A DNA stretch of 64,000 nucleotides from Microbacteriaceae bacterium 3FA27C10. GTDB taxonomy: Bacteria; Actinomycetota; Actinomycetes; Actinomycetales; Microbacteriaceae. The translations under genes were made by a program, and so were the position numbers. The first letter of the stretch is position 1. Each line of letters starts with the position of its first letter. The notes below the pieces were generated by a model, which had not been told where the DNA came from, did no database searches, and was given only the letters and a program-made list of their open reading frames with translations. This document shows, piece after piece, positions 2,962-37,672 of this stretch. The DNA lies in the NCBI GenBank assembly GCA_005502775.1, contig SCNI01000004.1:1-64000 (forward strand). The letters are read 5' to 3'.

Positions 2962-3003
2962 GAACGGCCTCTGAACCGCGTATTCGCAGGTCAGAGGCCG
3001 TTC
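2962..3003. terminator. hairpin downstream of tRNA-Lys and the DUF3263 gene
   Basis: GAACGGCCTCTGA and TCAGAGGCCGTTC form a perfect 13-bp stem with a 16-base loop. It stands between the 3' end of the minus-strand tRNA and the end of the plus-strand DUF3263 gene, so it can terminate both. There is no long T-run on either side. Confidence 0.65.
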
Positions 3004-3006
3004 GAC

Positions 3007-3082
3007 TGGTGCACCCCCTGGGACTTGAACCCAGAACCCACTGATTAAGAGTCAGTTGCTCTGCCGATTGAGCTAGAGGTGC
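3007..3082 (-). tRNA. tRNA-Lys (anticodon CTT)
   Basis: Read on the minus strand, the cloverleaf is complete. The acceptor GCACCTC pairs with GGGGTGC, the D arm has GCTC/GAGC, the anticodon stem is ACTGA/TCAGT around CTCTTAA with anticodon CTT, the T arm is CTGGG/CCCAG with TTCAAGT, the discriminator is A, and CCA is encoded. It is likely the attachment site for the accessory region that follows its 3' end. Confidence 0.97.
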
Positions 3083-4566: not shown

Positions 4567-4601
4567 CGAGAACCCACTGATCACGAGTCAGTGGGTTCTC
4601 G
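4567..4601. terminator. hairpin between whiB1 and pdtaS
   Basis: CGAGAACCCACTGA and TCAGTGGGTTCTCG form a perfect 14-bp stem around TCACGAG. It begins six bases after the whiB1 stop codon and faces the end of the convergent kinase gene, so it can serve both. The arm and loop resemble the anticodon arm of the tRNA-Lys gene 1.5 kb to the left. Confidence 0.8.
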
Positions 4602-4640: not shown

Positions 4641-6134
4641 TCACGGCTTCTTGAGCCACCGGAACGGGATCTCGATGGTCACGACCGTTCCCGAGCCCAC
4701 CATGGTGTGCCAGTCGATCGTGCCGCCGAGCTCCCCCTGGATGAGCGTGCGAACGATCTGCGTGCCGAGCCCCGAGCCGACTTTTCCCTCGGGCAGGCCG
4801 GTTCCGCTGTCGCGCACCTCGACCGTGAGGGTCTCCTCCGAGCGCGTGGCCACGATCTCGACCTCGCCCTCCTGACCGGCGAGGCCGTGCTCGACCGCGT
4901 TGGTCACGAGCTCGGTCAGCGCGAGGGCGAGGGGCGTGGCGTATTCGCTCGGAAGCACGCCGAAGCTGCCCGAGGACTTCGGATGCACGGTCGTGTTGTG
5001 CGCCGAGGCCACCTCCGCCACCAGCAACAGCACGCGGTCGAACACCGTGTCGAAGTCCACGCGCTGATTGAGGCCCTCCGAGAGGGTGTCGTGCACCACC
5101 GCGATGGCCGCGACGCGACGCATGGCCTGGGTCAGCGCATCCCGCGCCTCGTCGGAGTGGGTGCGCCGGGCCTGGATGCGCAAGAGCGACGCGACCGTCT
5201 GCAGGTTGTTCTTCACCCTGTGGTGGATCTCGCGGATGGTGGCGTCCTTGGTGATGAGCTCGCGCTCCTGGTGGCGCAGTTCGGTCACGTCACGGCTCAG
5301 CACGATGGCCCCGAAGCGGTGACCCCGGTTGCGCAGCGGAATCGCGCGCAGCGACACGGTGACACCCTTGGCCTCGATGTCGGTTCGCCACGGCGCCCGG
5401 CCCGTGACGACGAGGGGCAGCGACTCGTCGACCACGAGCCGGCCGCTGAGGAGGCCCGTGGTGACCTCGGCGAGCGACTGCCCCTCGAGCTCCCCCAAGA
5501 AACCCATGCGGTTGAAGGCGGAGAGCCCGTTCGGGCTCGCGAAGGTGACGATGCCGTCGACATCGAGCCGGATGAGCCCGTCGGATGCGCGCGGGGCGCC
5601 CCGGCGCGGCCCGGTGGGGGCGCCGAGATCGGGGAAGTCGCCCGCGGAGATCATCGAGAAGAGGTCGTTGGCGCACTCGTTGAAGGTGAGCTCCTGGCGA
5701 CTGGGGGTGCGCGCCTCGCTGAGGTTGGTGTGCCGCGTGATCACCGCGATCGGGCGATCGGTGGTGGTCTGGTCGGAGGCCGAGAGGCGGCGGAGCACCG
5801 GCACGGCGCGCACGCGCGTGGGAGTCTCCTCGTACCAGTCGGGGGCGGCGGTGTCGACGATCTGAGCGCTCTCGAACGCATCCGTGACCTGCTTGCGCCA
5901 TTCGGGCTTGATGGTCTGGCCCACGAAGTCCCGGTAGAAGAGCGTCGCCGAACTCGACGGGCGGGAGTGCGCGACGGCCACGAAGGTGCCGTCGACCGTG
6001 GGAACCCAGAGCACGATGTCGGCGAACGCCAGGTCGGCCAGGAGCTGGCAGTCGCTCACCAGCAGGTGCAACCACTCCACGTCGGCTTCGGTCGAGCTTC
6101 CGTGGGCGGCGACGAGATCACTGAGTGTTGACAC
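4641..6134 (-). CDS. pdtaS: PdtaS-type sensor histidine kinase
   Basis: The 497-residue soluble kinase has an N-terminal sensor domain of the H_kinase_N (GAF-like) type (about 5-145), a PAS domain (about 180-290), a HisKA_2 dimerisation domain with REIHHRVKNNLQ (phospho-acceptor His304 or His305) and an HATPase domain with the N box around Asn412, RDSGTGLP (Asp442) and GSGLGTQI. No membrane segment is present. In mycobacteria PdtaS phosphorylates PdtaR, an antiterminator with an ANTAR domain, and acts in copper/NO and cyclic di-GMP signalling. The response regulator is not beside it here. A GTG start (GTGTCAACA) is used. Its upstream region is the structured stretch described separately. Confidence 0.9.
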   Translation of the reverse strand: MSTLSDLVAAHGSSTEADVEWLHLLVSDCQLLADLAFADIVLWVPTVDGTFVAVAHSRPSSSATLFYRDFVGQTIKPEWRKQVTDAFESAQIVDTAAPDWYEETPTRVRAVPVLRRLSASDQTTTDRPIAVITRHTNLSEARTPSRQELTFNECANDLFSMISAGDFPDLGAPTGPRRGAPRASDGLIRLDVDGIVTFASPNGLSAFNRMGFLGELEGQSLAEVTTGLLSGRLVVDESLPLVVTGRAPWRTDIEAKGVTVSLRAIPLRNRGHRFGAIVLSRDVTELRHQERELITKDATIREIHHRVKNNLQTVASLLRIQARRTHSDEARDALTQAMRRVAAIAVVHDTLSEGLNQRVDFDTVFDRVLLLVAEVASAHNTTVHPKSSGSFGVLPSEYATPLALALTELVTNAVEHGLAGQEGEVEIVATRSEETLTVEVRDSGTGLPEGKVGSGLGTQIVRTLIQGELGGTIDWHTMVGSGTVVTIEIPFRWLKKP

Positions 6135-6155
6135 GCGTTCTAGCCTACGATGCAG

Positions 6156-6350
6156 CCCTGGGGAGTTCTGCCAGGGACGAGAGGCTCCCGTGGCCGAATT
6201 TCCCTACGAACCGACCACGGGAGCTGTCGCATTCCGGCCGGGATAGCGGTAGGTCGGGGGAACGGGCATCCCGGCCGGAAACTGGTGCGCTCTGTGCGCA
6301 AGATCATTCGACCATCCCCCGAACGGGTGGCGTTATGAGCAATTGCCACC
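6156..6350 (+). ncRNA. candidate structured RNA or riboregulator
   Basis: The 355-base gap between pdtaS and the next gene has no convincing small gene, but holds a row of perfect stems: CCCTGG/CCAGGG (6156-6176), GCTCCCGTGG/CCACGGGAGC (6184-6224), TTCCGGCCGGGAT/ATCCCGGCCGGAA (6232-6280), TGCGC/GCGCA (6286-6300) and GGTGGC/GCCACC (6326-6350). The loops of the second and third hairpins are complementary (TTCCC at 6200 with GGGAA at 6258; CTAC at 6204 with GTAG at 6249). A TACGAT hexamer ends five bases before the first stem and could be the -10 box of a plus-strand transcript. I cannot tell which strand is the RNA, or match it to a known class. The remaining 6351-6489 shows only the ribosome binding site of the next gene. 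Confidence 0.4.
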
Positions 6351-6489
6351 TAAGCACCACGGGCACTCGTCGAAATCCACAGGGCACAAACGCTTCTGGA
6401 CAAGCCTTCTCGACACTGGTTGAGTAACAGCCTCCGACACGGTGATGAGCATTGCTTACCTACCGGGCGTCCTGAAAGGAGCTCACCTG

Positions 6490-6960
6490 ATGACCTCAGC
6501 CTCGATCGCGCTGCTGCCCCCGCGAGCGGCGTCGCCACGGGCGCGGCGCGGCGTCGCCACGCGCCCTCATTCCGTCGCCGCGGGGCCGCCCGACACCCGC
6601 GATCCGGCTCCGGCGGCCTCCGTGTCCGATCCCCGACCGCTGGTGGAGAGCCTCGCCCGCTGCGTGGTGGAGGTCCTGGCCGGCACCCGCGATCTCGATC
6701 AGATCGCCCGTTGGCTCTCGGCCGACGTGCACGCTCATCTGATGAAGCGCGTGGTGCTGTCGCGGCGCGCTCGCACAGTGCGCCAGGAGTCGCCCGCGCG
6801 CCCGAGCTTCACGATGGGCACGACGGTGCTGTGCGAACCCAGCGACGGCGTGGTCGAGGCGGTCGTGATCGTGCACGGCCGGGCGCGATCACGCGCCGTG
6901 GCCATCCGGCTCGAGAGCCTGGGCGAGCGATGGCGCGCGAGCGCGATCCACGTGCTCTGA
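6490..6960 (+). CDS. DUF6459-like (Rv-family) conserved actinobacterial protein
   Basis: The 156-residue protein has a disordered Ala/Arg/Pro-rich start and a C-terminal domain from about residue 55. The phrase LARCVVEVLAGTRDLDQIARWLSADVHAHLMKR, then LSRRARTVRQ and RSRAVAIRLES-GERWRASAIHVL, is characteristic of a small actinobacterial family, often found beside secA, with no established function. The strands and the GERWR phrase suggest a small NTF2-like fold, which is my inference. AAAGGAG eight bases ahead decides the ATG used; earlier in-frame ATGs have no ribosome binding site. It converges on secA with 13 bases between the stops. Confidence 0.72.
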   Translation: MTSASIALLPPRAASPRARRGVATRPHSVAAGPPDTRDPAPAASVSDPRPLVESLARCVVEVLAGTRDLDQIARWLSADVHAHLMKRVVLSRRARTVRQESPARPSFTMGTTVLCEPSDGVVEAVVIVHGRARSRAVAIRLESLGERWRASAIHVL

Positions 6961-32623: not shown

Positions 32624-32679
32624 CGAGCCGTCGAAAGTACGTCCAACAGAGGTGATGTGGACGTACTTTCGACGGCTCG
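32624..32679. repeat. 22-bp-arm palindrome, copy 1
   Basis: Two perfect 22-bp arms (beginning CGAGCCGTCGAAAGTAC) flank a 12-base loop between the ends of the convergent regulator and manA genes. A second copy with the same arm length and loop size, differing at two arm positions and their partners, is at 37617. It can act as a terminator for both genes, but has no T-run. It looks like a dispersed palindromic element. Confidence 0.7.
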
Positions 32680-37616: not shown

Positions 37617-37672
37617 CGAGCCGTCGAAATGACGTCCAAAGCCCGCGGTATGGACGTCATTTCGACGGCTCG
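37617..37672. repeat. 22-bp-arm palindrome, copy 2
   Basis: Arms (beginning CGAGCCGTCGAAATGAC) of 22 bp flank a 12-base loop. Compared with copy 1 at 32624, two bases in each arm have swapped (GT to TG, with AC to CA opposite), which keeps pairing perfect. The right arm supplies the last codons and the stop of the minus-strand glycosyltransferase gene. It lies between convergent genes. Confidence 0.7.

Follow-up and report, generated by a model that had tools for sequence, protein, structure and literature searches.

What does the intergenic interval between pdtaS and its divergent neighbour encode, and on which strand is it read? The window, that is the whole stretch of 64,000 nucleotides from Microbacteriaceae bacterium 3FA27C10 (genus Herbiconiux) that was analyzed, contains in this interval, with pdtaS on the minus strand on one side and a DUF6459 gene on the plus strand on the other, a row of five perfect stems of 6, 10, 13, 5 and 6 bp, from which a functional structured RNA had been proposed in the initial annotation. 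All five were recovered by a stem scan (6156-6176, 6184-6224, 6232-6280, 6286-6300 and 6326-6350), as well as two extra overlapping 5-bp stems (6161-6189 and 6173-6205). Perfect stems with 10 or more pairs and a loop of 3 to 30 number 17 in the window, seven of them with 13 pairs or more; two of the 17, namely the 10- and 13-bp stems, adjoin each other at the element. Elsewhere in the window, a perfect 13-bp hairpin (2962-3003) adjoins a tRNA and a perfect 14-bp hairpin (4567-4601) directly follows a whiB gene, both of them perhaps terminators, and two inverted repeats of 56 bp, each with a perfect stem of 22 bp, lie 5 kb apart (32624-32679 and 37617-37672), the ends CGAGCCGTCGAAA...TTTCGACGGCTCG being common to both. 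The features of the locus needed for the hairpins are the following:

4641..6134, minus strand: pdtaS, by domain matches (GAF_PdtaS, HisKA_2)
6181..6299, minus strand: predicted sRNA gene of ~120 nt, with the 5' end placed from the -10 position and the strand from wobble pairs
6183..6225, minus strand: hp1, hairpin of up to 15 bp with loop UUCGUAGGGAAA, candidate terminator (stem scan, covariation)
6200..6207, minus strand: GUAGGGAA in the hp1 loop, partner of both hp2 loop segments
6231..6281, minus strand: hp2, 13-bp hairpin with the conserved C-rich loop GCCCGUUCCCCCGACCURCCG (stem scan, covariation)
6249..6252, minus strand: CUAC in the hp2 loop (CURC in most relatives), complement of GUAG in the hp1 loop
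6259..6262, minus strand: UUCC in the hp2 loop, complement of GGAA in the hp1 loop
6490..6960, plus strand: DUF6459 (PF20060) gene, divergent neighbour, by domain match

Covariation and strand of the two long hairpins

Among the five stems, conservation was found only in the 10-bp (hp1) and 13-bp (hp2) stems; the 5-bp stem at 6286-6300 lies inside a variable leader and the first 6-bp stem in an unconserved spacer past hp1. Covariation was tested with 16 sequences for 12 pairs of hp2 and 15 pairs of hp1 (428 cells), and 96.5% of the cells were paired as compared to at most 52.3% in slid controls. Two-sided changes were seen at 10 pairs, and 31 cells were changed on both sides as compared to 9.7 ± 3.2 in shuffles, none of the 500 shuffles reaching 31, while a measure of further pair types was not above shuffles (276/500). 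The hp2 stem was altered on both sides in G007 and in G063, a genome of another genus; in the latter it is formed by CCTGCTGAGA with TCTCAGCAGG, and the C-rich loop core is kept despite the changed stem. The 12-nt hp1 loop did not vary among the 15 Herbiconiux sequences and is replaced in G063. The two long stems covary in relatives, and structure conservation and covariation lend good support to the proposal of a functional structured RNA.

Read on the minus strand, the stem cells that were not Watson-Crick pairs comprised 32 G-U, 5 A-C and 10 others, besides 4 gaps, and the RNA is assigned to the minus strand because of this excess of G-U over A-C. The fold energies of 6174-6300 agree with this assignment: the z-score was -5.57 on the minus strand, where none of 200 dinucleotide shuffles was as stable, and -3.26 on the plus strand, where one of 200 was. 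Transcription on the minus strand runs toward pdtaS and away from the gene at 6490, so the RNA is no leader of the latter. A leader or riboswitch for the DUF6459 gene on the plus strand, one of the options named in the initial annotation, would account for the folding of the plus strand next to a divergent gene, but is scarcely credible given the 32 to 5 ratio of the wobble pairs. Moreover, on the plus strand the possible promoter of this gene comes only after the hairpins, and a similar arrangement is legible, by eye, in genera without hp1 and hp2 (L036, L037 and L046). Both features on that side are outside the sRNA:

6376..6402, plus strand: conserved TCCACAGGGC...TCTGGACA block upstream of the possible DUF6459 promoter
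6397..6425, plus strand: possible DUF6459 promoter TGGACA-N17-TTGAGT

They belong to a conserved block before the DUF6459 gene (6376-6465) with TCCACAGGGC, which is DnaA-box-like, the TGGACA-N17-TTGAGT arrangement and TGAGCAWTGCTTAC, parts of which are legible in genera without the RNA.

The initial annotation had furthermore pointed to complementary loops in the two longest hairpins. The complementarity of GUAG with CUAC and of GGAA with UUCC is real and kept: the corresponding pairs (GUAG/CURC and GGAA/UUCC) were formed in 93.7% of 126 cells as compared to at most 67.6% in slid controls, and the common CUGC variant still pairs with GUAG on the minus strand via G-U. The exceptions are L013, L014 and L015 with one non-pair each (in L013 and L014 plus a gap) and L010 with one A-C, and in G063, where the hp1 loop is replaced, four of the eight pairs remain. 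Support from covariation was not seen for these pairs, the columns of which hardly vary, and a kissing contact in Herbiconiux is plausible, if unproven. Of the alternative pairings of GGGTGG that had been suggested as a switch, the GGTGGC/GCCACC half is not conserved: it was paired in 57.3% of cells, which equals one of its slid controls, and this stem was dropped.

Distribution of the element

A search with the intergenic DNA against 60 relatives returned matches in 15, all within Herbiconiux. R1, a covariance model built on hp1 and hp2, matched 15 of the 16 Herbiconiux genomes; the remaining one, G009, also has no pdtaS match, and the absence may perhaps be due to an assembly gap (the genome is 92% complete). 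In the family, R1 matched 8 of 299 genomes (seven Herbiconiux and G063, the sole genome of another genus) and the longer covariance model R2 matched 19 of 398 at E up to 0.1, both searches having been run with stricter filters at which weak matches are lost. Strong R2 matches in the family numbered 12 (11 Herbiconiux and G063, E 1.3e-26 or better), and the remaining seven had E-values of 0.0066 to 0.078. At the level of the order, R2 matched 7 of 396 genomes, strongly only in that of the window, the others being at E 0.0085 or weaker. Five weak R2 matches were inspected and two of these were informative, namely a hairpin array in G378 and a second D site in G010, both treated below. The element is flanked by both pdtaS and the DUF6459 gene in all 15 Herbiconiux loci and in G063, and it had no match in the plasmids and phages searched. 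Two viral matches (L069 and L070) and an Ardenticatenales match (L065) were dropped as they lacked a match to the covariance model. The family is thus narrow, covering two of the 85 sampled genera of Microbacteriaceae, which counts against the reading preferred below, that of a free sRNA pairing through its C-rich loop.

Predicted promoter, RNA ends and the D motif

Upstream of hp2 on the minus strand, two elements, D and E, are both conserved and held at a constant distance with variable filler between them, and a third promoter-like box precedes pdtaS:

6142..6147, minus strand: pdtaS -10 box TAGGCT, 7 nt before the GTG here, apparently giving a leaderless mRNA
6304..6314, minus strand: E element, extended -10-like TGR-TGRAMTST (hexamer TCGAAT at 6306-6311 here)
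6332..6353, minus strand: D element, operator or upstream promoter motif TGAGTGGNAATTGCTCATAAC (consensus elsewhere TGAGTAGNAAYTGCTCATAACGC), conserved, recurrent and with fixed spacing

With E taken as the -10, the 5' end of the RNA is predicted near 6299, reading left on the minus strand, in place of the start near 6157 that had been anticipated. Conservation stops at the 3' arm of hp1, which suggests a 3' end at or just past hp1. hp1 has no U-tract, and a sigma-70 scan of 6100-6600 found neither a consensus promoter nor a U-tract terminator. The box TAGGCT was found 6-7 nt upstream of the pdtaS GTG in 15 of 16 loci (L014 had no match), and therefore pdtaS appears to own a leaderless promoter. 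The TACGAT hexamer that had been remarked upon before the first stem is present at 6146-6151 but overlaps this box of the opposite strand.

These observations bear on the possibility that the transcript from the D-E promoter runs through hp1 into pdtaS, hp1 and hp2 then being an attenuator or riboregulator on a second, longer pdtaS mRNA. The element is on the same strand as pdtaS and adjoins it in 15 Herbiconiux genomes and G063, and the missing U-tract of hp1 would allow read-through. A leader acting in cis would, however, be expected at a constant place within the 5' UTR of a single gene, whereas the spacer between hp1 and the pdtaS box, measured at 15 of the 16 loci, is anywhere between 14 and 260 nt long, and pdtaS has a -10 box of its own. 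Moreover, the hp1-loop motif was absent, at up to two mismatches, from 26 pdtaS loci of other genera, so that pdtaS in those genera does without the RNA, and the D motif was present in only one of the 26 (L054) at the same threshold. The pdtaS leader option of the initial annotation is thereby weakened, and we regard it as improbable. The free sRNA, another of the options listed there, is now the best reading: judged from the sequence, the element has a predicted promoter of its own and a conserved structure and stands apart from the neighbouring mRNA, as is characteristic of trans-acting sRNAs, and it very probably constitutes an independent, conserved sRNA gene on the minus strand.

The second D site in G010, found through a weak R2 match, led to a wider set of D sites. 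Allowing up to three mismatches, the D pattern was found at 82 places in 16 genomes as compared to 25 for the reversed pattern, and the sRNA locus accounts for 15 of the 82. A sample of 20 hand-chosen regions from seven genomes provided 28 further sites, some of which are likely orthologues of each other. In 26 of these 28 gene sites a hexamer NANNNT lies at exactly offset 20 after CATAAC, while any other offset from 8 to 35 was seen in at most six of 28 and the maximum over 2000 letter shuffles was seven. At the sRNA loci, T....T is present at offset 20 after CATAAC in 16 of 16, with TG before the hexamer. Unlike in the gene sites, position 2 of the hexamer is G or C and never A in all 16, which argues against identical promoter use at the sRNA locus. 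D is a near-palindrome of the TGAGTAG-N-A-N-CTACTCA type with its centre near -44, a place that would suit a class II activator.

Open reading frames of at least 100 aa were found mechanically downstream of 27 of the 28 D sites, and a few may be in the wrong reading. They comprise 14 CWB2 (CW_binding_2) proteins, six ASH/HYDIN-like Ig proteins, two glucose-6-phosphate dehydrogenases, one Septum_form protein and four without a family; signal peptides were assessed only visually. The 28th site (L180) leads, by eye, into CWB2-like sequence without a clear start, and in G063 a D site lies 60 nt upstream of an open reading frame with HYDIN-like Ig domains. The D-motif sites include G000:C33, C5 and L173-L192. 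Taken together, the D motif may mark a candidate envelope-protein regulon of CWB2 and ASH/HYDIN-type genes at distinct places beyond the sRNA locus.

The C-rich loop, known RNA classes and proposed action

The C-run of the hp2 loop has five C, or six in L009 and L011. The 16-nt loop GUUCCCCCGACCUGCC of hp2 in G002, which is one base off that of the window, is identical in the array of G378, a genome of another genus:

L225 (G378:C4, reverse strand), L100:1470-1640: G378 array, four long hairpins in succession

All four loops of this array contain a run of C5-C6, and one equals the hp2 loop of G002 over 16 nt. Unlike the element, the array has four hairpins with other stems and is situated upstream of purD, with an SCP_3 gene on its other side; the D element was not found within the stretch searched. 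Among the 299 family genomes, which do not include G378, exact copies of the 16-mer are confined to G063 and four Herbiconiux genomes, and matches with one mismatch over the 299 genomes are scattered; those in G022 and G189 look coding and were dropped. As the same 16-nt loop is carried in G002 and G378 by unlike hairpins, the loop sequence is suggested to be the functional part, G378 being a single case.

The full complement of the hp1 loop was found at only one site outside the locus (in G002) in the 16 genomes searched, and hp1 is therefore likelier to be a lid, a terminator or a protein site than a seed. By comparison, the complement of the hp2 loop, GTCGGGGGAAC, was found at 53 places in the 16 genomes, the RNA locus included. 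Mutual comparison of 30 of these loci gave three clusters, one being the RNA locus, and in 19 loci inspected, both other clusters among them, the genes or positions differ and no common target site was seen. For the 5' regions of the 28 D sites (90 nt starting 32 nt after CATAAC), duplex tests gave no pairing signal, with mean z-scores of -0.21 for the hp2 loop and -0.49 for the hp1 loop and values under -2 at 2/28 and 3/28 sites, respectively. Similarly, 13 CWB2 genes, which were tested against the hp2 loop because VGGT codons can spell its complement, showed no pairing signal (mean z +0.77).

Scanning the whole window with 4227 Rfam families at gathering score detected only the tRNA at 3010-3082. 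With E up to 10, the interval 6080-6520 gave one match, a snoRNA with E 6.5 at 6439-6470, which is outside the element and is due to chance; the raiA motif, put forward in the initial annotation as worth testing, was found at neither threshold, and no other family matched the element. Membership in 6C RNA (RF01066) was dropped on the same grounds, and furthermore 6C RNAs are made of two stem-loops with typically six C each (PMC4046766, in excerpt), while the hp1 loop has no C-run. The genome of the window has a separate 6C RNA candidate at G000:C20:59240-59311 (L125) with the loops AUUCCCCCCAAU and CUUCCCCCCAUU and a score of 41 bits, short of the 47 that Rfam sets as its cut-off. At E up to 1, RF01066 matched 15 of the 16 Herbiconiux genomes (none in G011), all of them below the cut-off, and annotation at the cut-off would therefore miss them. 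The element nevertheless resembles 6C RNA and B11 in being a short actinobacterial two-hairpin RNA with a loop C-run after UU (UUCCCCC) and, likely, in pairing with G-rich mRNA sites; it differs from them in that only one loop is C-rich, the second contains GGGAA and the stems are longer. In Staphylococcus aureus, sRNAs of the RsaE kind use a C-rich unpaired loop (UCCCC) as seed against G-rich ribosome-binding sites, and their loop is like that of hp2, although these RNAs belong to another phylum and the comparison covers the C-rich seed alone. For B11 of M. abscessus, the C-loop is described as pairing with G-rich sites in 5' UTRs, and loop and UTR mutations that restored pairing also restored repression (PMC10470900, in excerpt).

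The position next to pdtaS and the invariant 12-nt hp1 loop might also indicate an RNA that binds protein, titrating the ANTAR regulator PdtaR or another RNA-binding protein. Sequestration of PdtaR by an sRNA is known from the PPE1-5' RNA of M. tuberculosis (PMC8131098, in excerpt), and the identity of the loop in Herbiconiux together with an almost complete lack of trans complements would fit a protein site. In the PPE1-5' and other ANTAR-titrating sRNAs, however, the link to PdtaS/PdtaR is functional, whereas that of the element is positional only (PMC8131098 and PMC8164766, in excerpt). Moreover, ANTAR targets are described as a pair of hexaloops, each with A1 and G4, joined by a linker of 2-25 nt (PMC8164766, in excerpt), and such a dual hexaloop was dropped since at most one loop of this kind is present in the transcribed part of each of the 16 sequences. 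A single AXXGXX hexaloop with at least three pairs is possible in 10 of the 16 sequences, there at the expense of the inner hp1 pairs. As the hp1 loop is additionally replaced in G063, we consider protein binding unlikely.

An RNA similar to Ms1 or 6S that binds RNA polymerase appears even less likely, to the point of being very improbable. Ms1 is ~300 nt long in M. smegmatis, and Ms1 and 6S RNA form a long bulged hairpin. The conserved structure here consists of two simple, separate hairpins rather than such a rod, an Rfam 6S match is absent, and the neighbours are pdtaS and the DUF6459 gene. Finding a structured intergenic RNA in an actinobacterium, a group said to have no 6S RNA, speaks for this reading, but in most species Ms1 is associated with a HAD hydrolase gene and not with pdtaS (PMC9130861, in excerpt).

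We propose, as a reading that is somewhat better than an even bet as a whole, that the element is a free minus-strand sRNA of ~120 nt with the D-E promoter and a C-rich loop, UUCCCCCGACC, which would probably pair with G-rich sites in mRNAs, hp1 perhaps serving as its lid. The gene would be transcribed from ~6299 to 6181, with D as a near-palindromic operator, which would cover the -35 region or lie directly upstream of it, and E as the extended -10-like element, and a factor bound to D would switch the sRNA on along with CWB2 and ASH/HYDIN-type Ig proteins. In the folded RNA, hp2 would display the C-rich loop and hp1 would probably end the transcript. By analogy to the loops of 6C RNA and B11, the hp2 loop would most likely base-pair with G-rich mRNA stretches near ribosome-binding sites; action through this loop is our best guess, with the balance standing about level. 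The complementary hp1 loop may, hypothetically, mask the C-rich loop until a target displaces it. The RNA would then represent a new narrow family that works like C-loop sRNAs while falling outside 6C RNA. It is conceivable, though doubtful, that it is the first known representative of a narrow group of self-masking C-loop sRNAs, with a portable loop on unrelated scaffolds, a lid in the second hairpin and envelope-regulon wiring.

Titles and abstract beginnings from a non-exhaustive literature search held nothing on the RNA of the element or a D regulon. Few sRNAs are, to our knowledge, known outside Mycobacterium, Corynebacterium and Streptomyces. The predicted sRNA comes with a strand, a promoter and candidate co-regulated genes, which makes a role in relation to cell-surface proteins directly testable, and the D element reveals a candidate regulon that comprises CWB2 and Ig-like proteins. 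Moreover, the findings suggest that C-rich loops recur beyond 6C RNA as a device against G-tracts in GC-rich actinobacteria. If the self-masking reading is true, the sRNA would adjust the output of a cell-surface programme with CWB2 arrays.
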